Positions 27,008 through 54,908 of a DNA stretch of 64,000 nucleotides are shown here, one piece after another. The stretch is from a virus, in IMG/VR virus record IMGVR_UViG_3300008117_000025, positions 62,001 to 126,000 of that record; one strand, written 5' to 3'. Position numbers and translations under genes: made by a program. A model generated the notes under the pieces. It did no database searches. It was not told the origin of the DNA and worked only from the letters and a program-made list of their open reading frames with translations. Each line of letters opens with the position of its first letter. Position 1 is the stretch's first letter.

Positions 27008-29104
27008 TTATGAGACAACCAAAATTTTCTCTAAGGTTTTTATTACTCTATCTGAAGATATTTCTTTAGAACATTCAAATTGGTGTTGTGTTCCTTTATG
27101 TACGGGGCACCAATTCCAATCACCTGCATCTAGCCTATGTGAGTTGAAACAACCCCTACATTTACCTAAAGGTGCATCAATGTGGTAACAACTAGTAGGT
27201 TCAGTATATTCTTCAGTAAAGCCAGATACTATTATTGTAGGTGTATCTGTAGCCCATGATAGCCAACTTAATCCACTGCTAATTCCTATAAATGCTTCAG
27301 ATTCATTAAGTACTTTTACAGTTGATTCCATATCAAATGAGTCAGGATACTTAATTCCAGTTGGGTTTTTATTTCCCATATATCCGTTTTCTTCTCTAGA
27401 TAACATTACTACTTCATATCCTTGATCTTTACACCAATCAACTACTTCTTGCCACCCTGTTGGATTATTCCAATATTTAGCTTGTGCTGTACTGTGAACA
27501 GCAATAGCAATTTGTTTTTTCTTTGCAACTAATGGCTTTTTTAATTTTGGTTTTACTTCTATAAAATCTAATCCTAGAATATCAGATGCTGTTTTCTGAA
27601 GGTTTTGTTGTTTAATGTCAAAAGGATTTTTATTAAAGTCAACATTATCATCACTATTGTAAAACCACCCTATAACATACATTGCGTATAAATTGTAAAC
27701 TGTATCTCCCGGTTTAACAAATTCAATTTCTGGGTATTGTGATTGGAAGAAATAATTATGAAATGTAGAGCAAATAACTTTACATTTGTGTTTTTTTCTA
27801 AATTCTTCAACATATGGAAACCAAGCTAAAGTATCACCCAATGATTTAGAATCTAAAGCAATATATACTCTTTTATCTTTAAGATCTAAATCATGTTGAT
27901 ATAATAAATTACCATTCTCATCTTCAATCTTTATTCTCCAATCTATATAATATTGTTTACTTGTTCTAACCCAACAATTACTTTCTATTTCTTGAGAATA
28001 TTCTACTGTGTTTGTTTTTTTATTAATAAAGCTTACTTTATGTTTTTTATAAGGTGAGTCTAACACTTCAGCAAAAGGACCATTAATAAAATTAATATTA
28101 AATTTAGGAATGTTTACTTTTGAAGGTATTCCTAGTTTTTTTGTTGATTTATAAATAGATATTAATTGATCTTTCATATTTATTTTATTGTCTTCATATT
28201 TTTTTAATAAATCTTTTGTTCTATTTTTCCAAGATAAATCTAATGCCTGTTGTCTTGCCCTAGATGAATATAATGTATGTGAATTAAATTTAATTTTATT
28301 AAAAGCATCAACAATTTCATCTACATCTCGATTTACAGCTATCATTCCCTTTAGTAAGTTATTATCCTCAAAAGTTCCAATAACAGGTAAGCCAGAAGCT
28401 AACGCTTCTAATAATGTTAAATTAGGATGTCCAGCCTCTAATATAGAAGCATGGATAAATACACTATGTTCTTTGTATATATTTTTTAATTGTTCTTCAT
28501 TAAGATCATATAAAATAGTTAATTTATCATAATCTGAAGGGAAGGTATCAAAATAGTTTTTATTATTACTTGGTCCGGCTATTGTAATAGGTAAATCTAG
28601 TTGTTTTGCTGCTTCAATAGCATATCCAAATCCTTTTCTGTCTTCGGCTTGATTATGAATAAATCCATTATTTGCTACACATAATAATTTGTGTTCTTTA
28701 AATTCTCCCGGAGTAAAATAGTCTGTATTTACTCCATGTGAAAAATATTCAGGTATTCCTTCAAAGTAATCAACTAAAAATTTAGCAGGCACAAAGGCTT
28801 TTTTAGCATTCTTGATTGCTTGTAAATTTTCTTTATAGGCAGTAGAATCTTTTCCATATAAAAAGGCATGATGGTCATGCATAGTAAAATAATATGGTAT
28901 TCCACGTTCATGTGCTAAATTAGCTAAATTAGCAACATGAATATGTACTACATCATAATCTTTTACATCATCTAAATATAATATTTGTGAATCATGTCCT
29001 AATTCTAATAGGGCATTGTGTGTCTCCCATATAATTTTTTCTACGGCTCCCCATCCATTTGGGGGAATAGGAATTAAACCAGGCGTAACATTAATTATTT
29101 TCAT
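27008..29104 (-). CDS. GT4 glycosyltransferase fused to TibC-like heptosyltransferase
   Basis: The 698-residue protein has two parts. Residues 1 to ~290 resemble a GT4 enzyme (N-terminal PPNGWGAVEKIIWE and the donor-site HPNLTLLEALASGLPVIG near 235). Residues ~395-698 resemble bacterial autotransporter heptosyltransferases (TibC/Aah family): KSLGDTLAWFPYVEEF, ISSGLSWLSWATDTP, and the late metal-finger cysteines C649, C652, C666 and C678. Family members attach heptose to Ser residues of adhesins. Next to genes for long Ser/Thr-rich fibres, this suggests glycosylation of phage proteins. The sugar donor and target are inferred. It shares four bases with the upstream GT2 gene. Confidence 0.82.
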   Translation of the reverse strand: MKIINVTPGLIPIPPNGWGAVEKIIWETHNALLELGHDSQILYLDDVKDYDVVHIHVANLANLAHERGIPYYFTMHDHHAFLYGKDSTAYKENLQAIKNAKKAFVPAKFLVDYFEGIPEYFSHGVNTDYFTPGEFKEHKLLCVANNGFIHNQAEDRKGFGYAIEAAKQLDLPITIAGPSNNKNYFDTFPSDYDKLTILYDLNEEQLKNIYKEHSVFIHASILEAGHPNLTLLEALASGLPVIGTFEDNNLLKGMIAVNRDVDEIVDAFNKIKFNSHTLYSSRARQQALDLSWKNRTKDLLKKYEDNKINMKDQLISIYKSTKKLGIPSKVNIPKFNINFINGPFAEVLDSPYKKHKVSFINKKTNTVEYSQEIESNCWVRTSKQYYIDWRIKIEDENGNLLYQHDLDLKDKRVYIALDSKSLGDTLAWFPYVEEFRKKHKCKVICSTFHNYFFQSQYPEIEFVKPGDTVYNLYAMYVIGWFYNSDDNVDFNKNPFDIKQQNLQKTASDILGLDFIEVKPKLKKPLVAKKKQIAIAVHSTAQAKYWNNPTGWQEVVDWCKDQGYEVVMLSREENGYMGNKNPTGIKYPDSFDMESTVKVLNESEAFIGISSGLSWLSWATDTPTIIVSGFTEEYTEPTSCYHIDAPLGKCRGCFNSHRLDAGDWNWCPVHKGTQHQFECSKEISSDRVIKTLEKILVVS

Positions 29105-30201: not shown

Positions 30202-30202
30202 A

Positions 30203-31186
30203 TTATTTAAATTCTACAAAGCTATTGCTATTAATTATTTGATCTTTTGTATATGTTATAACAGTATTTCCTAATCTTATAGTAAGATGGTTATTTGATT
30301 GTAAATGAGAAGGGAGTGGATTGGATTCATATTGACTTAGTAAATTTATAGTATCAATAAATTCATCATTTATATATAAATCTGCATATTGATTTTCATG
30401 AACAATATCAATACTATTCATATAAAAATAAGCAAAATCTGATGTGTTTTTTATTTTTAATAATTTAATATCAAGCTGATTGTTATCATCTTTAAGTCTG
30501 TTAATGTTTATTTTACTATTGGTAAAATAGTCATAGACTTGAGTTCCTTGTATTAATAGAGCATTATCTAAATAATTGTTTTGTTTTAAATTACAATAAA
30601 AGAAATTCTCTAATACTCCAAAACTTCCGATTTGACCACATAAATTTTGATAATCACCTACTGTTTTACATATAGGAAAAACCTTATTGAAAAAATCTAC
30701 TTTAGTGTAGAAAAATATTGTTTGTATACAATTATCAATTAAAAAGAAAAATGCTTCTTTATTGTTTTTTATTGTTTCTAATTTGGTATTTTTTAGTTGT
30801 TCTATGTCTTCTTTAGAAAATATAGAATCCCCTTCTACATAATAAAATCCATCATAATAATCTTTAATAAACGAAACTGCGCTCATCATAGATTTATATA
30901 TAGCGTATGAGTGATGATTATGGCCATTTTCACCATAATGATATTCTAAATAAAATTTAGGAGTATGAACGTAAAAATAAACATTTTCATTTATAAAAAA
31001 CTCATTTCTAATATCGTAAATATAATAATTTACTAATGATTGTATTTCTATATCTGCAGGATAATGAGTTACAAGTAATATATCAAAATGTTGATTTAAA
31101 CTTAATATTGTATCTTTTAATATTTGTTTTCTACTATCAGTAGAAGGATATCCACCTATAACAACAAGATCTCTATTATTTGACAT
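30203..31186 (-). CDS. putative glycosyltransferase, paralogue A
   Basis: The 327-residue protein begins with a VVIGGYPSTDSRKQIL segment, then IYDIRNEFF, and has FYYVEGDSIFS (about residue 115), which resembles the DxD/ExD nucleotide-sugar site of GT-A enzymes. The C-terminal ~90 residues form a beta-rich domain (FAYFYMNSIDIVHENQYADL and onwards). It is related in layout to the next upstream protein (31190-32269). I cannot place it in a named family; a glycosyltransferase role is inferred from motif and context. Confidence 0.6.
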   Translation of the reverse strand: MSNNRDLVVIGGYPSTDSRKQILKDTILSLNQHFDILLVTHYPADIEIQSLVNYYIYDIRNEFFINENVYFYVHTPKFYLEYHYGENGHNHHSYAIYKSMMSAVSFIKDYYDGFYYVEGDSIFSKEDIEQLKNTKLETIKNNKEAFFFLIDNCIQTIFFYTKVDFFNKVFPICKTVGDYQNLCGQIGSFGVLENFFYCNLKQNNYLDNALLIQGTQVYDYFTNSKININRLKDDNNQLDIKLLKIKNTSDFAYFYMNSIDIVHENQYADLYINDEFIDTINLLSQYESNPLPSHLQSNNHLTIRLGNTVITYTKDQIINSNSFVEFK

Positions 31187-31189
31187 AAT

Positions 31190-32269
31190 TTAATTTAAAA
31201 CAAGTATGTTATTTATTAAATGTATATTATCTTTATTAATAATTACAGATCTAGTTTGATGATCATTCATAGTAATTTGTACTTCTACATTTTCTTCTGT
31301 TAAATCAAACGTTTCTACATAATTATCATTACTACTATATAAGTTATGTTCTATAATTTGTGGTTCTTGATTATTTCTTAGTATTTTAACAATAGATTTA
31401 TTATTATTTTCTGAACTACAATTCCATGTTATTATAGCAAATTTAGTATTGTCTGTAGGGGTATATTGTGGATCAACTCCTTCAACCGTATATCCTACTC
31501 TATGAATAGATGATATAAATCCATCTATTATCAGATCAGATTCTGAGGGGGATATAAGGGTATTCCAGGAAGAATCAGGGAAATCATCAAATATTATATT
31601 TGCTTGTTTATTTACTACATTATCAAACCCTCCTTCTGAGGATCTAACTATATTAAGAACAAACTCTTCAGCAATCATGAAATTTTCATCACTATTGAAA
31701 TTTCGTTTTGCTATAATATAATCATCTTCATTGTTTATTTTGGGGAAAATTTCAGTAAAATAATCTAAAGCAAAATACCAGAATTGGAAACAAATATATT
31801 TGTTTTGGTTTATATAGATGTATCCCTTTTTATTTTGTTCTTGGGTTTCAGCTATAATATTTTTAACATTTTCTATACTAGGAACTGTACAGTCATATTC
31901 TATTCTAAAAAAATGGGTATAACCTAAAGATAAGGCTAAATTAGTAGAATGATATAAATTAGACAAAACAGACAAACCATGTTTTTGAAATGCTTTAATT
32001 GCTATTGAAAAATATTTGTGGTTATCTCTATACCACATAGCAATAGTTTCTACATCTGAATAGTCTTTTTTAAATAGTCTGTTATTGTGATCGTATAGAA
32101 GATAATCTACTTCATCAATTAATGCTTGTTCAAATTTACTGTTTGTCACCAACATTATGGGGAGACCAGTTTTTTTAATAGAAGATAAATAATTTTTAAA
32201 AGTTCTTACACAATTGTCATTGTGAAAAAAAGCATCTACTATTATAATAGGTTTTATTTCTGGAGGCAT
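31190..32269 (-). CDS. putative glycosyltransferase, paralogue B
   Basis: The 359-residue protein has the same plan as its neighbour: IIIVDAFFHNDNCVRTFKNY at the N-terminus, a LYDHNNRLF segment, THFFRIEYDCTVPS near residue 120 (candidate metal/sugar site) and a C-terminal beta-rich domain ending INKDNIHLINNILVLN. The C-terminal domains of the two proteins share the pattern of alternating short beta strands. It sits between the four-domain transferase and paralogue A, separated by a few bases. Confidence 0.6.
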   Translation of the reverse strand: MPPEIKPIIIVDAFFHNDNCVRTFKNYLSSIKKTGLPIMLVTNSKFEQALIDEVDYLLYDHNNRLFKKDYSDVETIAMWYRDNHKYFSIAIKAFQKHGLSVLSNLYHSTNLALSLGYTHFFRIEYDCTVPSIENVKNIIAETQEQNKKGYIYINQNKYICFQFWYFALDYFTEIFPKINNEDDYIIAKRNFNSDENFMIAEEFVLNIVRSSEGGFDNVVNKQANIIFDDFPDSSWNTLISPSESDLIIDGFISSIHRVGYTVEGVDPQYTPTDNTKFAIITWNCSSENNNKSIVKILRNNQEPQIIEHNLYSSNDNYVETFDLTEENVEVQITMNDHQTRSVIINKDNIHLINNILVLN

Positions 32270-32273
32270 AGTG

Positions 32274-35200
32274 TTAGTTTATTCTTTTTAGGTATCCGTC
32301 TGGGTTGAAAGTAGAATTGGTTCCAAAATAATCACACCAATGTCTGTCTATAACAAAATCAGAATTTGTTTGCAAAAATTCATTAATAGCTTTACGAGGC
32401 CCTCCATTGTAAGTATCAGAAAGACCAGTAAAATCAATCACTCCATCTTCAACAATAAAGTAAGAATCTTTAGATACAATTTTACTAAATTTATTTAGGG
32501 ATTTTAATACATCTTCATAAGTGTGAGATCCATCATCTATAACTAGTATTTTTTCAAACCCTTTAGTATTTTTTTCTATATCATATTCTTCAAAACCACC
32601 ATAGAAAAACTTAATTTGACTATGATTAAATACTTTTTGATCGTGTATTTCATTATAGAGATTAATTGTATGAACTTCTCCTTTTCCTAATAAATACAAC
32701 AAATCAGCATAATATAAAGCTCCCCCACCCATATAGGTTCCGATTTCTATGATTAGGTCTGGTTTAATAGACATAATTAGCATTTGGTAGAGAGCATAAT
32801 CCATAGGGCATTTTAAATAGGGAACCTCCTTATATTGTACTGCAAAATGTCCACTATATATGTCTTGTAAATTTATATTAGATTCATGTACTAGGAAATT
32901 TTTATTCACATCTGGGTAAGCAGAGGTTATTACTTGGCTTTGCTTTGTAGTTACTTCTACTTTCCAGTCATGGCTTCTTTCTCCATAGGCACCATTGGGG
33001 GTAATTCTATAAACTCCTCCTACCCATTTATCATTTCTTCCTTTTCCTTTTTCTAAAAGTATAGTATTTAATGCCCAGTAAGCATCAAAAACATCTTCAT
33101 GGAAAAACCAATCAGGGAATTCCATGTCTTTAATAAGATTATTTCTAAACATAAAACCAAAAGAAATATAATTGGCTTTCATGTTATCTCTTAAGATTAC
33201 CTCTCCTTTTATACCCCAATAATAACTACTCATGAAATTATCATCACCAGGATTTTTTATATAATATCCAACACTGTAAACAGAATATTCTTTATTATTC
33301 TTTAAAAAGTTTATCTGTTTTTGTAATTTACTTTTATCGACATAGTAATCATCACCATCTAGAATAGTAACATATTCAGAACTAATTTTCTTTAAAAGAT
33401 CATAGGTCCTACGAATGACAGCTCCTTGATTTTTTTCATTTCTGTGTAGGATTACATTTGGAATATCTTTATATTTTTGTATGATATTCCAAGTATTATC
33501 TGTAGAGCAATCATCAGATATTAAGATATTGAAGTTAAATAATGTTTGTTGCATTAAAACACTATCAATACATTGTTCAATATATTCTTCATGATTGTAT
33601 GTAGGAATAAGTACAGTTAGTAACTTTTCCTCAGGAGATTTTTTAGCAAAAATAGTTCCAATAGGAGAAGATTTATATGCTTCTTCTATAATACTGTTGT
33701 TGTTTTCAGTATTTTGATCCCTAATTTGATCAACATCAAATCCCTTTTTAACTAAGGTTTGAATTAATTTTTCTACTCTTTCACCTTCATTATCATGAAA
33801 TTCTATAAGAAGATTATCTATTTTTTCAAAAATTTCATCTTCAAGATTTTCTATAATATCATATTCAGCCCCTTCAATATCCATCTTTAATAATGATAAT
33901 CTTTCAATATTATTTTGATCAAAGAATGTTTTTAAAGACACAGCAGGTACAGTTATTTGTTTTACCTCACTACCATTATTTTTAATATGATCTTCAGATA
34001 TACTTCCGATTGTAGTATTACTTGGGTCTATATAGAAAGTAAGATCTTCATCTTTAGTGTATATAGCTTTATCTATTACTTCTACATTTAAATCTTTTAC
34101 TAAGCAATTCAAATTAATTAACGATTCTTGATTAGGTTCAAATGCATAAACTTTTTTAGCTCCTTTATTAATTGCTAAAAGTGAAAATAATCCACTATTT
34201 GCTCCAACATCAAAAACAGTTTCCATTTTATCTAACTCATAGCAATCATATTTGTTCTGGAGGAACATTTCTCGATAATTGTTGAATAAACAATCAAATG
34301 GATTATCAATATTTAGTTTTACTTCTTTTTTAATAACATTTTTAACAAATAAATCCTTTAAAAATAAGAAGTTATCATTTTCATCATAAAATTCAACCGT
34401 TATAGTTCCTACAGCCGGGTCAGTAGCAAAATTTATGGATGATGTTGGTGTTGGAATTACCCACCAACTGCTATAGTTTATAAAAGTAACGGGAAACCAA
34501 TAGAGAGGAGCATTAGAATCTTTTTCCTTAATAGAAATTTTATAGGAATTAGGTTCAGCCCTTTTATAATTTATCGAAATTTTATTTTCTTCAGGTTGAA
34601 TATCAACATCAAAATAATTGCTTATGCTATTTGTGTTCATTTTTATATTTAGTTTGTTTAATATTTTTTCTATGTTTTGATTTTTATCACTAAAGTTTAA
34701 ATATTCAATATTATCGTACTTATTAAAGTAGTTTAAATATACGTCCAAATTATAAATTAAAGAAGGAACTCTCCAACTAATAGCTTCTCTAATTACTAAA
34801 GGCATTGTTTCTTTATCATTGATATGTCCTCTAGAAGTAAATAAGAATAGATCAGCCATTTGATAAAATGCATCTACATCACTTCTTTCTCCCCACCATT
34901 TACAGTTAGGAGGAAAATCCTTCATTATTGGTTCCCAATAATATTTAAAATTATCAGCTTGATTACCAATAAAATGGAATTGAATTGGATAATCCTGCAT
35001 TTGTTTTGCGTATTCAACAACTTCGGCTTGATTTTTTCTAGAGGTAAACAAACCTACATTAATAACATGTTTTTTATTAGGATCTAATCCTAACTCAGCT
35101 AATAATTCTTCTCTAGATTTTGTTTTTGTTTTGTATTCAATTGGGTATTCTACTAATTCACAAGGTATATTCAATGGTTTATATGCTTCAACTTGATATT

Positions 35201-35603
35201 GACTAACCATTGCAAAGTGATCAGGAAAGTGTTTTTTATTTGATATATCAAAACTAGAATCATGAGAAGTTTCAACTATCTTATATTTTCTATTTGAATT
35301 ATATAACTTTACAGCTAAATCATATGGCATAAACATTTCAGGAATTTCCTGGAGGTGAATAACATCTGGGTTTATTTTTTCAATATGTTCAAATAGTTTT
35401 TCTCTGGGTTCTCCTAGGGTAATTAGTCTGTTTCCCAATAAGTTGACGACTCTATTACGTTGAACTACTAAAACACCCCCTGTAATGTTATCCCATTCAA
35501 TACACCATACTTCACAACTTTCATTTAAAACCTCCATTTGTTTGTAAAGGTATTGAGGCATTCCTCCTGTAGATAGGTGAGGAGCAATAAAAAGTATTTT
35601 CAT
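32274..35603 (-). CDS. four-domain transferase: GT4, FkbM, GT2, second methyltransferase-like
   Basis: The 1109-residue protein has four recognisable units. Residues 1 to ~330 are GT4-like (MKILFIAPHLSTGGMPQYLY, LVIREAISWRVPSLI). Residues ~440-650 are an FkbM-type methyltransferase (VFDVGANSGLF near 464, KMDIEGAEYD near 578). Residues ~660-890 are GT2 (LTVLIPTYNHEEYIEQ, DDCSTDN, DGDDYYVD near 752). Residues ~930-1109 resemble cephalosporin hydroxylase-type methyltransferases (IIEIGTYMGGGALYY near 953, LVIDDGSHTYEDV near 1025). One chain could add sugars and O-methyl caps to a glycan. It is followed closely by three more glycosyltransferase-like genes. Confidence 0.85.
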   Translation of the reverse strand: MKILFIAPHLSTGGMPQYLYKQMEVLNESCEVWCIEWDNITGGVLVVQRNRVVNLLGNRLITLGEPREKLFEHIEKINPDVIHLQEIPEMFMPYDLAVKLYNSNRKYKIVETSHDSSFDISNKKHFPDHFAMVSQYQVEAYKPLNIPCELVEYPIEYKTKTKSREELLAELGLDPNKKHVINVGLFTSRKNQAEVVEYAKQMQDYPIQFHFIGNQADNFKYYWEPIMKDFPPNCKWWGERSDVDAFYQMADLFLFTSRGHINDKETMPLVIREAISWRVPSLIYNLDVYLNYFNKYDNIEYLNFSDKNQNIEKILNKLNIKMNTNSISNYFDVDIQPEENKISINYKRAEPNSYKISIKEKDSNAPLYWFPVTFINYSSWWVIPTPTSSINFATDPAVGTITVEFYDENDNFLFLKDLFVKNVIKKEVKLNIDNPFDCLFNNYREMFLQNKYDCYELDKMETVFDVGANSGLFSLLAINKGAKKVYAFEPNQESLINLNCLVKDLNVEVIDKAIYTKDEDLTFYIDPSNTTIGSISEDHIKNNGSEVKQITVPAVSLKTFFDQNNIERLSLLKMDIEGAEYDIIENLEDEIFEKIDNLLIEFHDNEGERVEKLIQTLVKKGFDVDQIRDQNTENNNSIIEEAYKSSPIGTIFAKKSPEEKLLTVLIPTYNHEEYIEQCIDSVLMQQTLFNFNILISDDCSTDNTWNIIQKYKDIPNVILHRNEKNQGAVIRRTYDLLKKISSEYVTILDGDDYYVDKSKLQKQINFLKNNKEYSVYSVGYYIKNPGDDNFMSSYYWGIKGEVILRDNMKANYISFGFMFRNNLIKDMEFPDWFFHEDVFDAYWALNTILLEKGKGRNDKWVGGVYRITPNGAYGERSHDWKVEVTTKQSQVITSAYPDVNKNFLVHESNINLQDIYSGHFAVQYKEVPYLKCPMDYALYQMLIMSIKPDLIIEIGTYMGGGALYYADLLYLLGKGEVHTINLYNEIHDQKVFNHSQIKFFYGGFEEYDIEKNTKGFEKILVIDDGSHTYEDVLKSLNKFSKIVSKDSYFIVEDGVIDFTGLSDTYNGGPRKAINEFLQTNSDFVIDRHWCDYFGTNSTFNPDGYLKRIN

Positions 35604-35623
35604 AACTTATAAAACTAATTTAT

Positions 35624-35809
35624 TTATATTTCATTATTAATAGGAGCGGCTTTATATTGTCTTTCTGTTGGATCAGCTGATTGTAATTCAGCTGCTTTAT
35701 CTATTGCCTCTTGTTCAGTAGGGTAGATATATTCTGGGTCATTTGGGTTTAATTTGGCAACCCAAATTTGATCGTTTCCAGGGATAAATTGCATTAATAC
35801 TATATACAT
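35624..35809 (-). CDS. small hypothetical protein, 61 aa
   Basis: A 61-residue soluble protein with WVAKLNPNDPEYIYPTEQEA followed by a helix (residues 33-45) and a polar end. It shares one base with the upstream GT9-like gene. The pattern of short strand, proline loop and helix looks like a compact folded domain. No family recognised. Confidence 0.55.
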   Translation of the reverse strand: MYIVLMQFIPGNDQIWVAKLNPNDPEYIYPTEQEAIDKAAELQSADPTERQYKAAPINNEI

Positions 35810-36765
35810 TATTGTTTATTTATACTGTTATAAATATCATTTATATTAAACATTTCATTTGCATCTATATAAGGACATTCATGTAATATACCATCTAAAT
35901 TATAATCAAACATATATGAATCGATTAATTTAAGACCACCTTGTTTTGGTGGATTTGCTACAATATTGTTATGGATATCATATCCAAACACAACAGGTGA
36001 TGTACCAACCCATAACACAGTTGATGGAAGTTTAAAAGCAGCCGCGGCATGTTGCATGCAAGAATCAATTAATACACGTTTTTTAGCGTTTACCATCATA
36101 GCAAACAATTCCATATTCGTCATTGCTTTATCTATTACTTCAACACCATCTAATTTTTGTGAATCAGGTCTAGTAATTTGAAATATATGGTAATCTTTTT
36201 TATACTTATCTACTATTTGTTGAGAATAATCATACGGCATATCTCTAGCCCAAGAATAACCATATTTTTGACCAGTTAATGGACCACCATTAGTTTGTAA
36301 TATCATTGTTGGTTTATCTCTTAACCACAAACCAGTAGTCATTTTTTGAGCCATATTGACAAATATCTGTGGTTGTTGTCCCGTATAAGGTATATTTAAA
36401 ATATCACACCAATTGTTTATCAGGTGTTTTCTGCGCAGAATATGGTCAGTTTGGTTATATGGTTCTTGTTTAAAGAAAAGCGTATCTTTATCTTTTATAT
36501 AATCATCATAAAAGTAGGATTTATTTCCTGAGAAATAAACTCTATCAATAAATGGATTATTTAGAAAACATTCTGGATGAGATACAACCATAATTAATTT
36601 TCTATCGGGGTATGTTTCTTTTATTGTTTGGCATAGTGCTGTTGCAGCAATATTTTTTCCTAATCCTCCATCAATATGCCAAACTAAATATTTTTCTGTT
36701 TTTGGTGTTTCCGGTACAGAAATAATATTACCTTTTTTCTTCGCTTGGTAAGTGTATCCTTCCAT
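35809..36765 (-). CDS. GT9-like glycosyltransferase
   Basis: The 318-residue protein resembles family 9 (heptosyltransferase-type) enzymes: WHIDGGLGKNIAATALCQTI near residue 30, where these enzymes have a Gly-Asp/Asn helix start, then PFIDRVYF, MILQTNGGPL and the donor-site region KRVLIDSCMQHAAAAFKLPSTVLWVG (about residues 230-256, shown in part). A second heptosyltransferase-like domain is in the protein at 27008-29104. It follows the oxygenase genes with a one-base overlap. Confidence 0.78.
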   Translation of the reverse strand: MEGYTYQAKKKGNIISVPETPKTEKYLVWHIDGGLGKNIAATALCQTIKETYPDRKLIMVVSHPECFLNNPFIDRVYFSGNKSYFYDDYIKDKDTLFFKQEPYNQTDHILRRKHLINNWCDILNIPYTGQQPQIFVNMAQKMTTGLWLRDKPTMILQTNGGPLTGQKYGYSWARDMPYDYSQQIVDKYKKDYHIFQITRPDSQKLDGVEVIDKAMTNMELFAMMVNAKKRVLIDSCMQHAAAAFKLPSTVLWVGTSPVVFGYDIHNNIVANPPKQGGLKLIDSYMFDYNLDGILHECPYIDANEMFNINDIYNSINKQ

Positions 36766-40561: not shown

Positions 40562-40613
40562 AACAGATTTATTTTTATAACTAAATATACGAAACTAAAT
40601 TTGTACTTCCAAA

Positions 40614-40868
40614 TTAAGGAAGTACAATTGGTTGAGGATAAGGCATTCCAGATTCAGCAGTCCAATCTGCTTGTGCTTGTGCAACAACAGCATCAACAGC
40701 AGCTTGTGCTTCTGCTTGTGTTTTTTCAATAGCACTAACACGTGTTGCCCAAGTTGTGTTTTCAGTTACCCAAATATCGGCAGGATATCCCGCAACGTGA
40801 GCTAATTCGTTATCTTCATGGGTAATGAATCCTTTACCCCAATTAGTAGCTTGATAATAATAAGGCAT
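40614..40868 (-). CDS. small protein next to the Kelch adhesin, 84 aa
   Basis: An 84-residue protein starting MPYYYQATNWGKGFITHEDN, with an Ala/Gln-rich helix (residues 46-70) and a proline-rich end (MPYPQPIVLP). It directly follows the repeat adhesin gene, and an ATATTTAT element precedes it. Small genes in this place often encode fibre chaperones or tip proteins, but no family is recognised. Confidence 0.6.
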   Translation of the reverse strand: MPYYYQATNWGKGFITHEDNELAHVAGYPADIWVTENTTWATRVSAIEKTQAEAQAAVDAVVAQAQADWTAESGMPYPQPIVLP

Positions 40869-40883: not shown

Positions 40884-40891
40884 ATAAATAT
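40884..40891 (-). promoter_or_regulatory. ATATTTAT element before the 84-aa gene
   Basis: The copy lies 15 bases before the ATG at 40868; its last base touches the stop codon of the Kelch adhesin. Confidence 0.45.
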
Positions 40892-46089: not shown

Positions 46090-46102
46090 AACTTGTTTAT
46101 AA

Positions 46103-47818
46103 TTATTTTATAAAATCAACTTGCACACCTATTTCTGTTAGAGAACCAGTAAAGTTTACTATATTAAAATATAATGTATCTCCTATATTAAAATTTGTAT
46201 TTTGTAATGTTGAGCTTGATACCCAAGATCCAGTTATGTTAACGGAAAGGTTTGAAGCTAACAAAGTAGTTGCAGCAGTATTTTTAAATGCATTTACTAC
46301 TAAACCAGATCCACTATCTCTAAATCCTGCTACTAAACTAGCTGTGCAGGTAAATGGAGCTCTCCATCCTACAAATGAGCCTGTATCGGATTGAGCAACA
46401 AGGCTATTATTAATTATGACAATTGATTTAGAGAAGCTAGTAAAACCAGCACTTATACCACTGGTACCACTACTTCCTGTTTGACCACTAGTGCCGCTTG
46501 AGCCTGATGTAATACCAGGAGCGGATGTGCCTGAGGTGCCACTTGAGCCTGTTTGACCGCTTGTACCGCTTGAGCCTGTTTGACCTGAGGTGCCGCTTGA
46601 CCCTCGTGTGCCACTAGTGCCGCTTGATCCGCTTGTTCCGCTTGAACCATTTTGACCAGAAGTACCACTTGAGCCAGTTTGACCAGAAGTACCGCTTGAA
46701 CCTGTTTGACCGCTTGTACCACTTGAACCGGTTTGACCTGAAGTACCGCTTGAACCTGTTTGACCACTTGTGCCGCTTGAGCCTGTTTGGCCTGAAGTGC
46801 CGCTTGAGCCAGTTTGACCGCTAGTACCACTACTGCCTGTTTGACCACTTGTGCCACTCGAGCCAGTTTGACCGGAGGTACCGCTTGAACCTGTTTGACC
46901 GGAGGTACCGCTTGAACCTGTTTGACCTGAGGTGCCGCTTGAGCCATTTTGGCCTGAAGTACCGCTTGAGCCGTTTTGGCCACTAGTACCACTTGAGCCT
47001 GTTTGACCAGAAGTGCCACTTGAACCGTTTTGGCCGCTAGTACCGCTAGAACCTGTTTGACCGCTTGTGCCGCTTGAGCCATTTTGGCCTGAGGTGCCGC
47101 TTGAACCATTTTGACCAGAAGTGCCACTTGAGCCTGTTTGACCACTAGTACCACTAGAGCCATTCTGACCTGAGGTGCCACTTGAGCCTGTTTGGCCGGA
47201 GGTGCCACTTGAGCCTGTTTGGCCGGAGGTGCCACTTGAGCCTGTTTGGCCGGAGGTGCCACTTGAACCGTTTTGGCCGCTAGTGCCGCTTGAACCGTTT
47301 TGGCCTGAGGTACCGCTAGAGCCTGTTTGGCCGCTTGTGCCGCTTGAACCATTCTGGCCTGAGGTGCCACTTGAGCCTGTTTGGCCGGAGGTGCCACTTG
47401 AACCGTTTTGGCCGCTAGTGCCGCTTGAACCTGTTTGGCCGCTTGTGCCACTTGAGCCTGTTTGACCTGAGGTGCCGCTTGACCCCCGTGTGCCACTAGT
47501 GCCGCTTGAACCGCTAGTACCACTTGAACCATTTTGGCCTGATGTGCCAGAAGAGCCTGCAGTACCACTAGTTCCACTAGTAGCAGCTGTATATGAAGTT
47601 CCGTTTATATTGAGAGAACCAGTTATGTTTACTGAGCCCGTAAATTGATGTGTGTTACTTGATAGGCTACCAAAGCGAGTAGATCCTGTTACAAAATCAA
47701 TAGATGAAGTTATTGTTTGTACATTAAGTGTTTGAGCAGTAATTGTATTAGTTACAACTACACTACCTGTAACACTTAAATCGTTAAAACTACCCGAATC
47801 TGTATAAAATATTGGCAT
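46103..47818 (-). CDS. collagen-like fibre protein, 571 aa
   Basis: Residues ~1-75 are a beta-rich module (FTGSVNITGSLNINGTSYTA) shared with the next upstream fibre. About residues 77-450 are Gly-X-Y triplets, mostly in a nine-residue unit GQTGSSGTS or GQNGSSGTS, with Ser, Thr, Gln and Asn but no Pro or Lys. This would form a collagen-like triple helix. The final ~110 residues (SFSKSIVIINNSLVAQSD and on) form a C-terminal beta domain, a likely trimer knob. It is a side or tail fibre by composition and position. The Ser/Thr density makes it a good glycosylation substrate. Confidence 0.8.
   Translation of the reverse strand: MPIFYTDSGSFNDLSVTGSVVVTNTITAQTLNVQTITSSIDFVTGSTRFGSLSSNTHQFTGSVNITGSLNINGTSYTAATSGTSGTAGSSGTSGQNGSSGTSGSSGTSGTRGSSGTSGQTGSSGTSGQTGSSGTSGQNGSSGTSGQTGSSGTSGQNGSSGTSGQTGSSGTSGQNGSSGTSGQNGSSGTSGQTGSSGTSGQTGSSGTSGQTGSSGTSGQNGSSGTSGQTGSSGTSGQNGSSGTSGQNGSSGTSGQTGSSGTSGQNGSSGTSGQTGSSGTSGQNGSSGTSGQNGSSGTSGQTGSSGTSGQTGSSGTSGQTGSSGTSGQTGSSGTSGQTGSSGTSGQTGSSGTSGQTGSSGTSGQTGSSGTSGQTGSSGTSGQTGSSGTSGQNGSSGTSGSSGTSGTRGSSGTSGQTGSSGTSGQTGSSGTSGTSAPGITSGSSGTSGQTGSSGTSGISAGFTSFSKSIVIINNSLVAQSDTGSFVGWRAPFTCTASLVAGFRDSGSGLVVNAFKNTAATTLLASNLSVNITGSWVSSSTLQNTNFNIGDTLYFNIVNFTGSLTEIGVQVDFIK
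46450..47590 (-). repeat. 27-bp tandem repeat encoding Gly-X-Y triplets
   Basis: The DNA repeats with a 27-base period (nine residues, three triplets). Codons differ between copies at third positions, but Gly placement is unbroken over most of the block. Such arrays change length easily by recombination or slippage. Confidence 0.85.
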
Positions 47819-47826
47819 GATCTAAT

Positions 47827-47834: not shown

Positions 47835-50800
47835 TTAATTAGTTTCCCCATATGCTGTTGCTATCCAATATGTTGTTCCTGCTAATCCTACATTACTATT
47901 TGCATTTATAACAAAGCTACCAGATACTTTACTTTCTACAGTCCATGTTCTTGAATCTTCGCCTGTTATAACTACAGCATAGTTTGCATCAGCAAAAGCT
48001 GCAGCAAAAGTTATAGTTGATTTTCTAGGATTACCAGCAAAGGATCCTGCAGCTACTGATCCTGCTTTTGTTTTTAATCCAGAAACACCAGCATTTAAAG
48101 CATAAGAAGCAGTTGTTGCAAACGAAGCAGTACCTAATAATGAACCTGTAAAGTTAGTAGCAATTATTGAACTAGTTACATTCAAAATACCACCCGTAAA
48201 GCTCATACTTACAGATGCTGTTGCTGCATTAACTGTACCGTCTGATAATAGTATTCTTCCTGTAGCAGGACTATTAATTGTATTAAAACCAGTACCAGCA
48301 GTACCTGAGGAGCCACTTGTACCAGTAGAGCCTGATGTGCCACTAGAACCAGAAGTGCCAGATGAACCTGAAGTACCACTAGAGCCGCTTGTACCACTGG
48401 TGCCACTTGAGCCACTTGTGCCACTTGTGCCACTTGAGCCGTTTTGGCCTGAGGTCCCACTTGAGCCGCTTGTGCCAGACGATCCATTTTGACCACTAGT
48501 GCCACTAGATCCACTTGTACCACTTGAACCACTAGTACCTGATGAGCCAGATGTACCTGCTGTGCCTGAAGTACCAGTAGTTCCTGAAGTACCGCTTGTA
48601 CCTGTAGTACCTGATGTGCCACTAGTTCCACTAGTTCCTGAAGTAGCAGCTGTATAGGAAGTTCCGTTTATTGTAAGAGAACCTGATATATCTAAGCTGC
48701 CGCTTACTATAAAATTATTTGAAAATGAAGATGTTGCAGCATAGGATGCAGATGCAGGAATACCATTTACCCACAAACCAGCATTATAAACTAATGCTTG
48801 TCCTGTTGAAGGAGAAGAAATAGTTACATCACCTAAATCATTTAAGTTTGTTACTGCAGCACCACCACCACCTGAGGATCCGGCTGTGTTTCTGAATAGG
48901 CCAGCTTGGATTATTTTATTATTTGCTGTATCAGATAAATCAGTTGTATCACCTTTAGCAATAATGTAACCAATAAACGGTAATGCTAATTGACTAGTTG
49001 GTGATTCAACAAATTCTTCTGTTGTAATACTTTGAAGTGCTGTTGAAAGATTGTCATAAACATTTTGACCATAATAGACATATGATAAATTATTAACAAC
49101 ACCCTGGAATACTCTTTGTATTGTCCATTGACTTGCACTTACTGTTTGAAGTGTACCAGATCCATTGTCGTATTTAGTAGGATCAATAACTGTATAAGGA
49201 ACACCAGCATTAGTTGCAGCTCTATATCCCCCTGTTACTCCTGGATCTCTGTATACCCTAACTAAACTACCAGTAGCAATAGTAGTAGAATCATAAATTG
49301 AAGGTGAAGTTGGATTTTGACTATAAAAACCACCATAGCGATATGCTTGTCCAGAAGCAATACTAATTCTTAAACTGCTTGTTTGTGGAGTAATATCAAA
49401 TCCACTTATTTTTAATGGACCAAATGCTCTAACAAACTGATTTGATTGTTCTGATTGGCCATATGTTGTTACACGAGCATCAGCAAATGAACTAATACTT
49501 GATGTTGTTAAATTAAATATATAACCTAATGGGAATTGTTCATTATATTGTTGAGGAGTAAATGGAGAAGTTTGTTGTATTAAACTACCATTTGAATCAA
49601 TTAATAGATAAGTTACTTGAGATGAAGTTATATATTGAGCACTAGCTGTTATAGGGCCAAATTGAACATAGGTTGGATTTGTACTATTGTGTGAGCTGGT
49701 AATAGCATTGTGATCTATAATTAGACCAGCACCTGGTGTGACATAAAGTATAGAGCCGGAGAATGTGGTAACGCCACCCCAAACAATACCAGTATCAGTT
49801 CTTTCTTCTAACCAGTGTGTTTCCCAAAGAGCACTATTGTTTCTATAATGTAAATTTGGTATAGTATCATCTAAAGAAGAAGTTACAAAGAAATAAGATG
49901 AAGATACATTTGATCCACCTGGGTCAGTTCCAGGTTTTAATTCTAAATAGTTTCTAATTGCAAATATATTTGCAGAAGAAGCTGTTGAAGCAAAACTAGC
50001 TGTTGTTGCTGTAGCAGCATTACCACTTATAGATGCACTAATATATGATTCATTCTCCCATTTAGTAGAAGTAGAATTATATACTAATGCTTGACCGTCT
50101 GTAGGTCCTGATATCATTACATCAGATAAATCTACTAAACGAGTAGTTATTACTGATCCACCACCACCTGATCCTCCTACTGATCTAAATAGACCTCCAG
50201 GTACGATCGTGAAGTCATTAGCATTTGTAAATACACCACTTCCGTTAATTATAACAGCACCTAGATAAATTGCATTAGCAGCTGTATTAGGAGCTTCTAC
50301 GAATGGTTCTATGTTTATATTTGCAATAGCTTCAGATTCTGAACCGTAATAAGCATTACCATAATAAACAACTATTGCTTTAGCTACACTATTAGGAAAC
50401 CAGAATACTCTTTGAATAGTCCAGTTTAAATTTGCAGGTGGAGGTACTGCTGTTAATGTACCATTATTAGAATATTGTGTAGGGTCAATTGATGTAAATC
50501 CAGCTCCTCCGTTAGTTTGATAAACCCAAGTAGATCCTGATTGATAATATCTGTATATTTTAGAAATACTAGTTCCTGAGTCAACAGCATATGATGGTTC
50601 GTTTGGATCTATAGTATAATTAGATCCTGGAGAATAAGCGGTACCACTACCTACTACTAAACCACCTGTAGAAGATCCACTAGGTGTTAAAGTAAATCCT
50701 GATAATTTTAATGGACCAAACGCTCTATTGAATATATTTTGTGATTGTTCAAAACCATATGCTACAGAAGGCTGTGTTTTGACAGCATTAATTGTAGATC

Positions 50801-53800
50801 CATTTTGAAATAATACAACACCTATATTAATTAATGTATCAAACTGTCCATTACTAAAAGGAGTTCCTTGTTGGAAGATATTACCAGTCGAATCAACAGC
50901 AACAAAAGCTTGTTGGTAAGATGCTGTTAAAGGAGCAATACTAGCTGATAAATTGCCCCAGTTAAGGTATTGAATTGTTGGGTAAGGATTATCATTTAAA
51001 CTTGCATTTAAATCAACAATAATACCACTACCACTACTAATATTATATGTAGTAGATCCTGTAGCAGCTGTTATTACACCACCATTTAATAATCCAGTAT
51101 ATAAATTACCTTCTAACCAACGTAAACGAGTTGTATTAGAATATCCTCCTCCATTCTGAGAAAAATATAAGTCATTTGTAGATCCACTTACATAAATGTA
51201 AGAGGCAGATATTGAAGTATCTATATTTGTTGTTACAGGATCAAATCTATGATAACCTGATTGCCTAATATCACCATATATTTGTACTGATGCTGTTGCA
51301 GCTCCCGGTCCACTAGATCCAGAAATAGTAATACTACCTGATAATGAAGTATTTCCAAGTAATATATTGTTACCTATTTGGGTAGTAGAACCACTTACTA
51401 GGAAACTGCCTGTTATAGTTTGAATACCAATAAAAGTATTTGAACCGCTTGTATTTAATGAACCAGTTAATTTATAAGAGCCAATTAATTCTTTAGAATT
51501 AACCCAAACACTACCACTCTTTATAAATAAATCACCATATGATGAAGTAGTTGTACTATCAACTACATCATGTAATTCTCCTAATTCATATCCATTATCA
51601 ATCTTAATGTAGATTGAACCTACATTATTATCTATTCTTTCAGCATATCCTAATCTTACACCATGAAGTGGTGCTACAGGAGGAGTTTGAGTGAATTGAC
51701 CCGCTGAGCTACTTAAAAATATTAATTGACCTCCTACTAATCCTGTTGTATTTAATCCTCTTAAAGTACCTTCTGTTTGTACCCAACCTTCATCACCAGC
51801 GTTAATTGTTTCAGCAATAAAACCTAATGTATTAGCTGAACCTTGTTCAGCAGTTGCTGAAGCTAATTTAACAGCTATTCTATTACCTTGAGAGCCTGAA
51901 ATATATACTACTTGACCTTTAGTTAAGGTTCCACCACTATTATTGTAAACATATTGAAATAAATCTTCACCTATATTTAAAGTTACATTACCTCCAGCTA
52001 ATCCAAATTGTAAAGTACCTTCACCACTATCATATCCTAGTCTACCAAGAGCAGAAGCAAATGAAGCACTAGTATTAAAATCAATGTAATCTACATTAGT
52101 TATAGATCCTGATGTGTAATTTAATGAACCTGAAATATAAACAGATCCTGTTATATACAAAGCACTTCCACTATAAGTTAAATTAGCGGAAGCAGTTGCA
52201 GCATTTACACTACCGTCTGATAATAATATTCTGCCTACAGCAGGATCATATATTGTATTAAAGCCAGTGCCACTTGTGCCGCTAGAACCTGAAGTACCTG
52301 ATGAGCCAGAACTACCTGATGTTCCAGAAGAACCACTTGAACCTGATGTTCCAGATGAGCCACTTGTACCAGAGCTTCCTGATGTTCCTGAAGAACCAGA
52401 ACTACCACTTGTGCCTGAGCTTCCACTTGAACCTGAAGTTCCTGATGAGCCTGAACTTCCTGATGTACCACTTGAACCTGAACTACCACTTGTGCCTGAA
52501 GACCCAGAGGTACCGCTAGTTCCGGATGTACCAGAACTGCCGCTTGTACCAGAAGAACCACTTGTTCCTGAGGAGCCACTTGATCCTGCTGTACCACTTG
52601 TGCCTGAAGAGCCTGCGGTGCCGCTAGTTCCACTAGTAGCAGCTGTATATGAGGTTCCGTTTATAGTAAGGGAACCAGTTATATTTACTGATCCAGTAAA
52701 CTGATGGATATCACTTAATTCATCTCCAAATTTATTACTTCCACTGCTATATATAATAGAGGAAGTTATGTATTGTACATTTAAAGTTTGGGCAGTAATT
52801 GTATTAGTTACAGTTAAAGAACCACTAATAAAAGTACTACCAGTAATATTAAAATTACTATTACTATAAGTTAAATTGACAGAAGCCGTTGCTGCGTTAG
52901 CTGTACCATCTGAAAGTATTACTCTACCTTGAGAAGGAGAATTAATAGTATCAAAGCCTGTACCGCTTGTACCTGAACTTCCAGAAGAACCACTTGATCC
53001 ACTTGAACCTGATGTACCAGATGAACCTGAGGTACCACTAGATCCTGAAGAACCAGATGTACCTGAGCTGCCACTAGAGCCAGATGTTCCGGAGGAGCCG
53101 GAGCTTCCTGATGTGCCTGAAGAGCCAGAACTGCCTGAAGTTCCACTTGAACCCGAAGTACCTGATGATCCAGAGGTACCACTTGAACCACTAGAACCAC
53201 CAGTACCACTAGAGCCGCTTGTACCGGATGAACCAGAAGAACCTGCTGTACCGCTAGATCCTGCTGTACCACTTGTACCAGAAGAGCCTGCTGTACCACT
53301 AGTTCCACTAGTAGCAGCAGTATAAGAGGTACCATTTATAATTAAAGAACCAGTTATATCTACTGATCCGGTAAACTGGTGGGTATCTGTTAATAAAGAA
53401 CCAAATCTAGTTGATCCAGTTACATATTCAGTAGAAGATGTAATTGTTTGAGCGTGAATTGTTTGTGCTGTAAGAGTACCTCTTACTGTAAAATTATCTG
53501 CTGAAGAAGCGGTTGCTGCATTAGAAGCAGATATAATACTATTAGAACCATAAGGACCCCAAACATTAGCTCCTGTTATAAAAGATGCTGTTAATGCATT
53601 TTGTGCCCAACTAGAAGTACCATGTAAAGAACCAGTAATACCATTTAAAACAGTTAGTGAACCACTAATATTTAAAGAACCAGTTAATTCATGTTGATTA
53701 TTAGGATTTAATACTAATTTTTTATTTGCTTCTGTATCAGTACCACCAGCAAAAAACATTACTGGGTGGTTTGAGGCATTACCTATATGTAAGTGGTCTC

Positions 53801-54908
53801 CGGTAGAATATAGGTAAGCATCATTAGCCATACCTATAGCATTAGGTTGACTATAGTTACTACTATTGATACCCATATCAATGTAGTAACTAGATTCATT
53901 TCCTATATCATTAGTAGCAACTATATCAGCAGATGCTGTAGTTCCTGAATTTATATTTTGGATAGAAATTTGTGAGTAGTTATTTACATCTGATTCTGCT
54001 TGGATTAGATTGTATGTATTAGGAGCTGCAGGGGGAGCTACTATTCTTAACGCTGGTAGGGCAGGGCTTGCTGCGGAGCTTGTAGTATCAGTATTAAAAC
54101 TTGTTACACCTTCAGGATGAAACCAAATTTTAGCATTTGCTGTAGTGTCTAAACCACCATTAAATATAACAATTTTTTTATCAGCAGCAGCGTTTCCTAT
54201 ATAAAAGTCGTTTGCTTTAGAGAATAAATAACCATCATTTCCTAAACCAACAAAAAATGGATTATTATATGTACTACTATTAATACCAAAATCAACATAG
54301 TAATTATCTTCATCACCTATATCGTTTGTAACAACAATATCAGTTGATGCTAATGATCCACTACTTATATTTTTAAAGTTAACTTGAGAATAATTATCAG
54401 TATTGCTTCTACCAACAATTAAGTTATATGTTGTATCATCATGAGATACAATCAATAATGTTTCTGGGTTAAACTGGTCAAAAGAGCTAGTATTGATTGC
54501 AACACTACCGCTTTGATTGATAAGAAGTAAAGTAGTATTGCCTGAAGGGTCAGGAACATTATATGTTACTTCAAAAGCTCTCTCAGGATTAATGCTAACA
54601 CTAGCTGTAACACTACCTGTTACTATTCTGGAACTATCTACAACTGGTAGATTAGCTACATATGATGCTGTTAAAGCATAACTTGCGGTACCTAATAATG
54701 AGCCAGTAAATGAGCCTGAAAATGAGCCTGTAAATGCTCCTATTTTAGAGCCAATCGTAACAACTTCTTCACCGCTAGAACCTGACTTTTTCATAAAAGC
54801 CAGACCGTCGTATGTATTTAAAGCAATCTCTCCAAAATCAAGAGAAGAGGTAGTTGGTATTCTACCTGGTACCGCAGAACGGCGTAATTTTAAATATTGA
54901 TTCGACAT
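47835..54908 (-). CDS. giant collagen-like tail fibre, 2357 aa
   Basis: The N-terminus (LKLRRSAVPGRIPTTSSLDF, GEIALNTYDGLAFMKK) is a typical phage fibre attachment domain. The protein then alternates beta modules with three Gly-X-Y blocks of Ser and Thr (about 52.96-53.33, 52.26-52.64 and 48.30-48.65 kb). Each block follows the module ending INGTSYTAATSG and leads into TGFNTI..P..GRILLSDGT. Between blocks 2 and 3 lie two related long domains, each with a QSEQ/QSQN-F-RAFGPLKISGF segment. It is likely a long tail fibre trimer. The C-terminus has a beta domain ending IATAYGETN. Palindromes and an ATATTTAT element lie in its leader. Confidence 0.85.
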   Translation of the reverse strand: MSNQYLKLRRSAVPGRIPTTSSLDFGEIALNTYDGLAFMKKSGSSGEEVVTIGSKIGAFTGSFSGSFTGSLLGTASYALTASYVANLPVVDSSRIVTGSVTASVSINPERAFEVTYNVPDPSGNTTLLLINQSGSVAINTSSFDQFNPETLLIVSHDDTTYNLIVGRSNTDNYSQVNFKNISSGSLASTDIVVTNDIGDEDNYYVDFGINSSTYNNPFFVGLGNDGYLFSKANDFYIGNAAADKKIVIFNGGLDTTANAKIWFHPEGVTSFNTDTTSSAASPALPALRIVAPPAAPNTYNLIQAESDVNNYSQISIQNINSGTTASADIVATNDIGNESSYYIDMGINSSNYSQPNAIGMANDAYLYSTGDHLHIGNASNHPVMFFAGGTDTEANKKLVLNPNNQHELTGSLNISGSLTVLNGITGSLHGTSSWAQNALTASFITGANVWGPYGSNSIISASNAATASSADNFTVRGTLTAQTIHAQTITSSTEYVTGSTRFGSLLTDTHQFTGSVDITGSLIINGTSYTAATSGTSGTAGSSGTSGTAGSSGTAGSSGSSGTSGSSGTGGSSGSSGTSGSSGTSGSSGTSGSSGSSGTSGSSGSSGTSGSSGSSGTSGSSGSSGTSGSSGTSGSSGSSGSSGSSGTSGTGFDTINSPSQGRVILSDGTANAATASVNLTYSNSNFNITGSTFISGSLTVTNTITAQTLNVQYITSSIIYSSGSNKFGDELSDIHQFTGSVNITGSLTINGTSYTAATSGTSGTAGSSGTSGTAGSSGSSGTSGSSGTSGSSGTSGTSGTSGSSGTSGSSGSSGTSGSSGSSGTSGSSGSSGTSGSSGSSGTSGSSGTSGSSGTSGSSGSSGTSGSSGSSGTSGSSGTSGTGFNTIYDPAVGRILLSDGSVNAATASANLTYSGSALYITGSVYISGSLNYTSGSITNVDYIDFNTSASFASALGRLGYDSGEGTLQFGLAGGNVTLNIGEDLFQYVYNNSGGTLTKGQVVYISGSQGNRIAVKLASATAEQGSANTLGFIAETINAGDEGWVQTEGTLRGLNTTGLVGGQLIFLSSSAGQFTQTPPVAPLHGVRLGYAERIDNNVGSIYIKIDNGYELGELHDVVDSTTTSSYGDLFIKSGSVWVNSKELIGSYKLTGSLNTSGSNTFIGIQTITGSFLVSGSTTQIGNNILLGNTSLSGSITISGSSGPGAATASVQIYGDIRQSGYHRFDPVTTNIDTSISASYIYVSGSTNDLYFSQNGGGYSNTTRLRWLEGNLYTGLLNGGVITAATGSTTYNISSGSGIIVDLNASLNDNPYPTIQYLNWGNLSASIAPLTASYQQAFVAVDSTGNIFQQGTPFSNGQFDTLINIGVVLFQNGSTINAVKTQPSVAYGFEQSQNIFNRAFGPLKLSGFTLTPSGSSTGGLVVGSGTAYSPGSNYTIDPNEPSYAVDSGTSISKIYRYYQSGSTWVYQTNGGAGFTSIDPTQYSNNGTLTAVPPPANLNWTIQRVFWFPNSVAKAIVVYYGNAYYGSESEAIANINIEPFVEAPNTAANAIYLGAVIINGSGVFTNANDFTIVPGGLFRSVGGSGGGGSVITTRLVDLSDVMISGPTDGQALVYNSTSTKWENESYISASISGNAATATTASFASTASSANIFAIRNYLELKPGTDPGGSNVSSSYFFVTSSLDDTIPNLHYRNNSALWETHWLEERTDTGIVWGGVTTFSGSILYVTPGAGLIIDHNAITSSHNSTNPTYVQFGPITASAQYITSSQVTYLLIDSNGSLIQQTSPFTPQQYNEQFPLGYIFNLTTSSISSFADARVTTYGQSEQSNQFVRAFGPLKISGFDITPQTSSLRISIASGQAYRYGGFYSQNPTSPSIYDSTTIATGSLVRVYRDPGVTGGYRAATNAGVPYTVIDPTKYDNGSGTLQTVSASQWTIQRVFQGVVNNLSYVYYGQNVYDNLSTALQSITTEEFVESPTSQLALPFIGYIIAKGDTTDLSDTANNKIIQAGLFRNTAGSSGGGGAAVTNLNDLGDVTISSPSTGQALVYNAGLWVNGIPASASYAATSSFSNNFIVSGSLDISGSLTINGTSYTAATSGTSGTSGTSGTTGTSGTSGTTGTSGTAGTSGSSGTSGSSGTSGSSGTSGQNGSSGTSGSSGTSGQNGSSGTSGTSGSSGTSGTSGSSGTSGSSGTSGSSGTSGSTGTSGSSGTAGTGFNTINSPATGRILLSDGTVNAATASVSMSFTGGILNVTSSIIATNFTGSLLGTASFATTASYALNAGVSGLKTKAGSVAAGSFAGNPRKSTITFAAAFADANYAVVITGEDSRTWTVESKVSGSFVINANSNVGLAGTTYWIATAYGETN
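48295..48650 (-). repeat. Gly-X-Y block 3 of the giant fibre
   Basis: About 115 residues with Gly at every third position, mainly GTS, GSS and GQN triplets. It lies near the C-terminus of the giant fibre and is the block most like the one in the 571-residue fibre. Confidence 0.8.
52260..52640 (-). repeat. Gly-X-Y block 2 of the giant fibre
   Basis: About 125 residues of GSS and GTS triplets without Gln or Asn, between the INGTSYTAATSG module and GTGFNTIYDPAVGR. Confidence 0.8.
52960..53325 (-). repeat. Gly-X-Y block 1 of the giant fibre
   Basis: About 120 residues of GSS, GTS and GTA triplets, nearest the N-terminus, leading into GTGFDTINSPSQGR. Confidence 0.8.

Follow-up and report, generated by a model that had tools for sequence, protein, structure and literature searches.

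The genes between positions 27008 and 54908 of a sequence window from a large, aquatic, T4-like phage probably encode a protein O-glycosylation system that acts on the phage's own tail fibers or other long virion fibers, and we place the probability of this reading at roughly 0.6. The most informative component is a 698-amino-acid protein that, judged by its sequence, is a true TibC/Aah-type domain fused to a glycosyltransferase family 4 (GT4) domain, with catalysis being predicted. Since the known members of the TibC family have proteins as substrates, the domain serves as a strong marker. Given that TibC relatives in phages usually reside beside fiber genes, and sometimes also with sugar donor genes, glycosylation of the phage's own fibers, and not only alteration of the host surface, is probable. 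We infer that the fibers are the acceptors, along with the residues modified, the sugar used and the order of the steps.

In the proposed pathway, cytoplasmic fiber proteins that await assembly would receive a first sugar on Ser or Thr residues from the TibC-type domain. The fused GT4 domain, a second GT4 domain, and the GT2 and GT-A-like domains would then extend the glycan, and FkbM and CmcI-type methyltransferases would O-methylate it. The 2OG-oxygenases of the block may hydroxylate fiber residues or sugars.

Organization of the gene block

The window analyzed here is a stretch of 64,000 nucleotides, located at 62001-126000 in a virus record of 182,846 bases (IMGVR_UViG_3300008117_000025, termed G000). 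It carries a T4-like Gp23 major capsid protein, found with PF07068, that shares 61% identity with its counterpart in Flavobacterium phage immuto and 50% with that of Microcystis phage Mel-JY01. Because of these resemblances, the host is likely a member of the Bacteroidota. The features relevant to our interpretation are as follows.

60074-61693, minus strand: T4-like major capsid protein Gp23, which places the phage (PF07068, 1.3e-78)
47835-54908, minus strand: 2357-aa fiber with three Gly-X-Y blocks of 39, 41 and 39 triplets (PF01391 and block count)
46103-47818, minus strand: Ser/Thr-rich Gly-X-Y fiber of 571 aa with one block of 117 triplets (PF01391 and block count)
40891-46089, minus strand: propeller-type, fiber-like repeat protein of 1732 aa with DUF5122/delta-60 and kelch-type repeats (sequence and profile matches)
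40601-40627, minus strand: terminator-like hairpin between the fiber and enzyme blocks (consensus match only)
39291-39875, minus strand: 2OG-Fe(II) oxygenase (Pfam PF13640)
38673-39287, minus strand: 2OG-Fe(II) oxygenase (Pfam PF13640)
38073-38660, minus strand: 2OG-Fe(II) oxygenase (Pfam PF13759)
37417-38070, minus strand: 2OG-Fe(II) oxygenase (Pfam PF13759)
36765-37436, minus strand: 2OG-Fe(II) oxygenase (Pfam PF13759)
35809-36765, minus strand: weak GT9-like protein (phrog_8954, 1.6e-7; RfaC, E 0.013)
32274-35603, minus strand: GT4, FkbM methyltransferase, GT2 and RMNT_CmcI methyltransferase domains in one protein (Pfam)
31190-32269, minus strand: putative GT-A-like companion domain, copy 1 (model with pLDDT 62 and Foldseek)
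30203-31186, minus strand: putative GT-A-like companion domain, copy 2 (homologous to 31190-32269)
29101-30201, minus strand: GT2 glycosyltransferase (PF00535, 3.2e-12)
27008-29104, minus strand: GT4 domain (residues 1-305) fused to a TibC/Aah-type O-heptosyltransferase domain (residues 351-694; TIGR04414, PDB 4rap/4rb4)

All open reading frames named in a preliminary description of this DNA were recovered at the same coordinates on the minus strand. All main genes from 54908 down to 27008 lie on this strand, with fibers first and enzymes after. The 2357-aa fiber, the 571-aa fiber and the 1732-aa propeller-type repeat protein are followed by two small genes, the five 2OG-Fe(II) oxygenases, the weak GT9-like protein, the 1109-aa GT4-FkbM-GT2-CmcI protein, the unnamed domain in two copies, the GT2 protein and, last, the 698-aa GT4-TibC fusion. 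The largest gap among the enzyme genes (35604-35808, 205 bp) contains a 60-codon open reading frame, and the hairpin at 40627-40601 may separate the fiber genes from the enzymes. A near-identity search of phage records with the enzyme block returned no match.

Two other genes of this phage were observed in passing. In the baseplate region of the window (13829-17209), the last 150 residues of a 1126-aa protein match phage endolysin families. At 154381-156123 of the full record is a protein that, judged by eye from its sequence, resembles an outer-membrane TonB-dependent receptor, which is an unusual gene for a lytic phage.

Both Gly-X-Y proteins are real Ser/Thr-rich fibers, as originally proposed, with Ser and Thr accounting for 185 of the 351 block residues in the 571-aa protein and for 223 of 357 in the 2357-aa protein. 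The longest run in the latter is 41 triplets, compared to no more than 6 in 200 shuffles. A 'FTGSVNITGSLTINGT' segment flanks Gly-X-Y sequence in the window fibers. The 1732-aa protein was ruled out as a Gly-X-Y protein; it is a delta-60/propeller-type repeat protein (DUF5122) with a long array of 'GGTLITARSGLAGAGTQNAALAFGG...CTEEYNGTSWTAGG' repeats broken by delta-60/DUF5122 repeats.

A TibC/Aah-type domain in the 698-aa protein

The TibC/Aah-like domain first proposed from sequence motifs is well supported. Residues 351-694 match TIGR04414 (hepto_Aah_TibC) with 292.9 bits against a cut-off of 200, and a stand-alone phage copy scores 285.6 bits against the same cut-off, whereas the LPS heptosyltransferase I model (WaaC/RfaC) reaches just 30.5 bits on the 698-aa protein, below its cut-off of 185.3. 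By sequence, the protein matches the TibC structures PDB 4rap/4rb4 at 1.8e-59. Its AlphaFold model (mean pLDDT 72) matches 4rap in Foldseek with E 2.8e-30 and a TM score of 0.82 of the target, and contains the TibC fold, with strands at 334-417 forming the N-terminal beta-barrel, followed by a GT-B-like catalytic fold.

In the bacterial TibC protein, Asp110 is the base, Thr226 and Lys230 bind phosphate, Arg286 contacts the adenine of ADP-heptose and relates to ADP-sugar specificity, and the iron finger helps to recognize the acceptor (PMC4358343, whose residue numbering is used here). The window domain retains Asp110, Thr226, Lys230 and Trp305 as well as Cys339, Cys342, Cys358 and Cys370. Residues and neighbors were counted for 128 non-redundant viral copies or loci among the matches listed. 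Asp110, Trp305 and each of the four iron-finger cysteines are present in 128/128 copies, Thr226 is Thr or Ser in 128/128, and Lys230 is found in 127/128. Part of this conservation is by construction because Trp305, Lys230 and Cys358 sit inside peptide motifs that were used to find some of the loci; Cys339, Cys342 and Thr226 are outside the motifs of the viral scans.

The position of Arg286 is more variable. It is Thr in the window domain, and the 128 viral copies include 64 with Val, 32 with Arg, 16 with Thr and 11 with Leu. We considered loss of this arginine as a sign of a donor other than an ADP sugar, but this argument is weakened because phages that carry HldE-like genes have Val or Leu at the same position, and thus the loss need not exclude ADP-heptose. 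Most phage copies also carry Tyr-Met rather than Phe-Val at the tip of the thumb.

Partner enzymes

The two GT4, two GT2 and two methyltransferase domains and the five 2OG-oxygenases of the preliminary description all proved to be correctly assigned. Its GT9-like protein fared less well: a weak match to phrog_8954 (1.6e-7) exists, but the best RfaC match is E 0.013 and there is no Pfam match, and this gene is too weak a candidate to serve as evidence. The description had also overlooked a domain that is present in two copies (30203-31186 and 31190-32269). The former copy has no match in Pfam, PHROG or NCBIfam. For the latter, the best Foldseek matches are nucleotide-sugar transferases (E about 1e-5, TM 0.3-0.5), and so the domain is predicted, with low confidence, to have a GT-A-like fold resembling those of nucleotide-sugar transferases. 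A more specific resemblance to collagen galactosyltransferase/LH3 was dropped, since the Foldseek similarity of the low-confidence model is generic to GT-A folds.

Several of these partners recur in other phages. The domain at 31190-32269 shares 55% identity with the C-terminal part of a protein in another TibC locus (L012:5172-8948), and the first 899 residues of the 1109-aa protein are 67% identical to L012. The unnamed domain of 30203-32269 is found in 43/128 viral TibC loci. The GT4 family of the 1109-aa protein is near TibC in 104/128 loci, and the family to which the GT4 domain of the 698-aa protein belongs occurs in 40/128, fused to TibC in 14 loci and separate in others. The occurrence of the same GT4 family in fused and separate forms constitutes Rosetta-stone evidence. 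An oxygenase similar to that at 38673-39287 adjoins TibC in two further loci (L062 and L076).

Distribution of TibC relatives

Three motif scans of IMG/VR each yielded at least 555-577 confirmed viral relatives, and similar motifs applied to 84,980 bacterial and archaeal genomes yielded six. The phage forms are either stand-alone proteins of 382-385 aa or are fused to GT4, methyltransferase or other domains. Among named phage records, TibC is present in Microcystis phage Mel-JY01 (PP395634) and in three uncultured megaphage records. By tblastn against phage records, a stand-alone TibC match was obtained in only 4 records, none of them a cyanophage. In a literature search that covered mainly open-access papers, no phage was reported to have a TibC-type enzyme.

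Association of TibC with fiber genes

Using a simple composition rule (at least 250 aa and at least 20% Ser plus Thr), we found a Ser/Thr-rich fiber-like gene near TibC in 66 of the 78 viral loci with adequate flanks, and directly adjoining it in 20. In two phages of the clade with stand-alone TibC (G001 and G003), the gene order is tail fiber (Gp53-like_C), tail-fiber chaperone (PF16778), GT4-methyltransferase, TibC, HldE-II-like and HldE-I-like. The tail fiber of this clade is giant, and its chaperone is also assigned to tail fiber assembly by PHROG. In L012, a fiber with an S74 chaperone directly adjoins the TibC module, and a 2803-aa collagen-type fiber is next door to TibC in L077. Other clear examples are L038, L011, L082, L041 and Mel-JY01. 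In the 735-kb megaphage LR756501, 99 bp separate the TibC module from a Gly-X-Y fiber gene, which is the sole fiber-like gene (at least 250 aa) from 423 kb to the end of the record.

A within-genome permutation on 12 large contigs gave combined Fisher P values of 0.006 for fiber-like genes, called by the same composition rule, and 0.005 for Gly-X-Y genes. However, 3 of the 13 TibC copies are no closer to fiber-like genes than average, namely those of the window and G003 and the second copy of G013. The enzymes had been described as lying next to the fibers, and they do belong to the same co-directional run, but 17.0 kb separates the TibC gene from the nearest Gly-X-Y gene. In the window's own genome, closeness does not exceed chance: TibC is no nearer to fiber-like genes than an average gene is (fraction 0.56). 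A second Gly-X-Y fiber cluster of this phage lies outside the window, at 44.6-60.1 kb of the record. A same-strand-run (operon) statistic could not discriminate, given the long co-directional gene arrays in these genomes.

Co-occurrence of TibC-like and Gly-X-Y genes in related phages, which the preliminary description proposed to check, holds in part. Gly-X-Y blocks are present in 68/128 non-redundant viral TibC loci, a count that is limited by the lengths of the flanks, and Ser/Thr Gly-X-Y sequences occur somewhere in 10 of 12 whole TibC records. However, the pairing is not universal: the stand-alone TibC clade has an adjacent tail fiber and no Gly-X-Y block near the enzyme. Gly-X-Y was thus rejected as an obligatory partner, and the earlier view that the Gly-X-Y block itself is the acceptor is not supported by these distributions. 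In a control set built from the terminase of this clade, consisting mostly of short contigs, Gly-X-Y was found in 1 of 4 TibC-positive records and in 0 of 6 TibC-negative records, one of the latter being the genome of Flavobacterium phage immuto; these numbers are too small to weigh either way. TIGR04415, the repeat that canonical TibC acceptors carry, was detected in 0 of 30 records, with no match in the window fibers, while an E. coli control was positive. If the fibers are acceptors, their recognition must therefore differ from that in bacterial systems. In sum, the fiber-glycosylation proposal retains a genuine TibC domain and a recurrent fiber association in unrelated phages, whereas Gly-X-Y as the acceptor and proximity in its own genome are not supported. 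The methylated sugars, greater stability and escape from proteases that the description also proposed are speculative.

Two fiber genes of TibC phages deserve separate mention. The 2802-aa tail fiber of G003 (L345:11244-19652, minus strand) has, near its C terminus, a match to an intein splicing domain (PF14890, 2.4e-7) that is below the cut-off. Mel-JY01 has a long Gly-Ser-Ser/Gly-Thr-Ser fiber open reading frame (L001, 635-3052; 805 aa from a TTG codon) that its GenBank record seems mostly to miss, with a minus-strand 'hypothetical protein' annotated over most of it.

Sugar donor

An HldE-like gene pair adjoins TibC in 19/128 viral loci. HldE domains I and II are the best NCBIfam families for these genes, although the scores of 100.7 and 116.9 bits fall short of the curated thresholds of 181.5 and 345. 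Unlike HldE (RfaE) itself, the phage version is divided between two short genes. No match to HldE domain II occurs in the window's own record, which carries, at 24.9-30.8 kb, GDP-mannose 4,6-dehydratase-like, GDP-L-fucose synthase-like and dTDP-glucose 4,6-dehydratase-like genes. Because no HldE was detected but genes for GDP-fucose and a dTDP-sugar are present, heptose is not supported as the sugar of this phage, and its first sugar may be heptose or another nucleotide-activated sugar. More broadly, the region at 19.9-34.5 kb of the record, outside the window (L325-L326), is a second sugar-gene cluster with several likely glycosyltransferases, and it is near the second Gly-X-Y fiber cluster.

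Comparison with known systems and alternative explanations

The closest parallels are the bacterial autotransporter heptosyltransferases (BAHTs) TibC and Aah, which modify proteins and adjoin the gene for their acceptor autotransporter (PMC4358343). The phage domain passes the TIGR04414 cut-off, has the same fold, and keeps the catalytic Asp, the beta-phosphate Thr/Lys, the Trp and the four iron-binding Cys residues; moreover, its gene is often beside one for a long Ser/Thr-rich repeat protein. The differences are that it is phage-borne and frequently forms fusions with GT4 or methyltransferase domains, that Arg286 is mostly replaced and the thumb tip is Tyr-Met in most copies, and that the AIDA/TibA acceptor repeat is absent. 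Mycobacteriophages Che8, Corndog and Myrna offer a second parallel, with phage-encoded glycosyltransferases that decorate proteins of the phage's own virion (Freeman et al. 2023, cited by PMC12619734 and PMC12363180). There, the acceptors are capsid and tail tube proteins, whereas the predicted acceptor of the window system is a tail fiber; these two accounts, in their accessible parts, do not mention TibC.

Pelagimyophage and cyanophage clusters in host-recognition regions likewise carry glycosyltransferases, sugar kinase/rfaE-type genes and oxygenases among tail-fiber genes. The available sections of the corresponding papers (PMC7029224 and PMC7824862) make no mention of TibC, and their authors interpret the clusters as agents of O-chain modification, with PMC7029224 treating the rfaE-containing clusters of pelagimyophages and PMC7824862 extending the O-chain reading to jumbo phages and cyanophages. 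By analogy, the glycosyltransferases of the window could remodel the surface of the infected cell, at its LPS O-chain or capsule, and thereby exclude other phages, with the fiber neighborhood representing a shared 'host recognition' island whose parts diversify together. GT4, GT2, FkbM and NDP-sugar genes are indeed typical of polysaccharide loci, and this explanation is plausible, yet we consider it unlikely. The domain scores 292.9 bits to TibC/Aah and about 30 to LPS heptosyltransferase I (cut-off 185), and the protein-binding iron finger is fully retained. To our knowledge, every member of the TibC family characterized to date glycosylates proteins. Fiber glycosylation is also favored because BAHTs act on the protein products of neighboring genes (PMC4358343) and because adjacency to fibers is seen repeatedly.

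A protein acceptor need not be a fiber. TibC might instead act on host proteins such as surface adhesins, or on another phage protein such as the capsid or sheath, in which case proximity to fibers would be incidental to late-gene order. The absence of the TibC acceptor repeat from phage records (0/30) fits this idea, as does the finding that fiber proximity is no better than that of an average gene in the window genome and several large contigs. Nevertheless, direct fiber adjacency recurs in different phages and the combined P values are small, which leaves such a target quite improbable. Even harder to credit is a role unrelated to protein, such as DNA hypermodification or production of a secreted sugar metabolite. 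Phage glycosyltransferases often glucosylate DNA (PMC12619734), and metabolite clusters of phages include 2OG-oxygenases and methyltransferases (PMC7824862). However, the window cluster showed no base-modifying partner enzyme, and both the iron finger and the fold of TibC are features of enzymes with protein acceptors.

Implications

Extending the fiber-glycosylation reading beyond this phage is more tentative, and we regard it as slightly short of an even bet. On this broader proposal, a TibC-type O-heptosyltransferase and its GT4/methyltransferase partners, with HldE-like donor synthesis in some lineages, might form a widespread, previously unreported pathway that glycosylates tail fibers, and many phage 'LPS-type' clusters located by fiber genes might serve fiber decoration rather than host-surface modification. 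The proposal offers a testable alternative to the usual view that glycosyltransferase clusters among tail-fiber genes alter host LPS. If it is correct, phage-made glycans on receptor-binding fibers would constitute a post-translational layer on host recognition and fiber properties.
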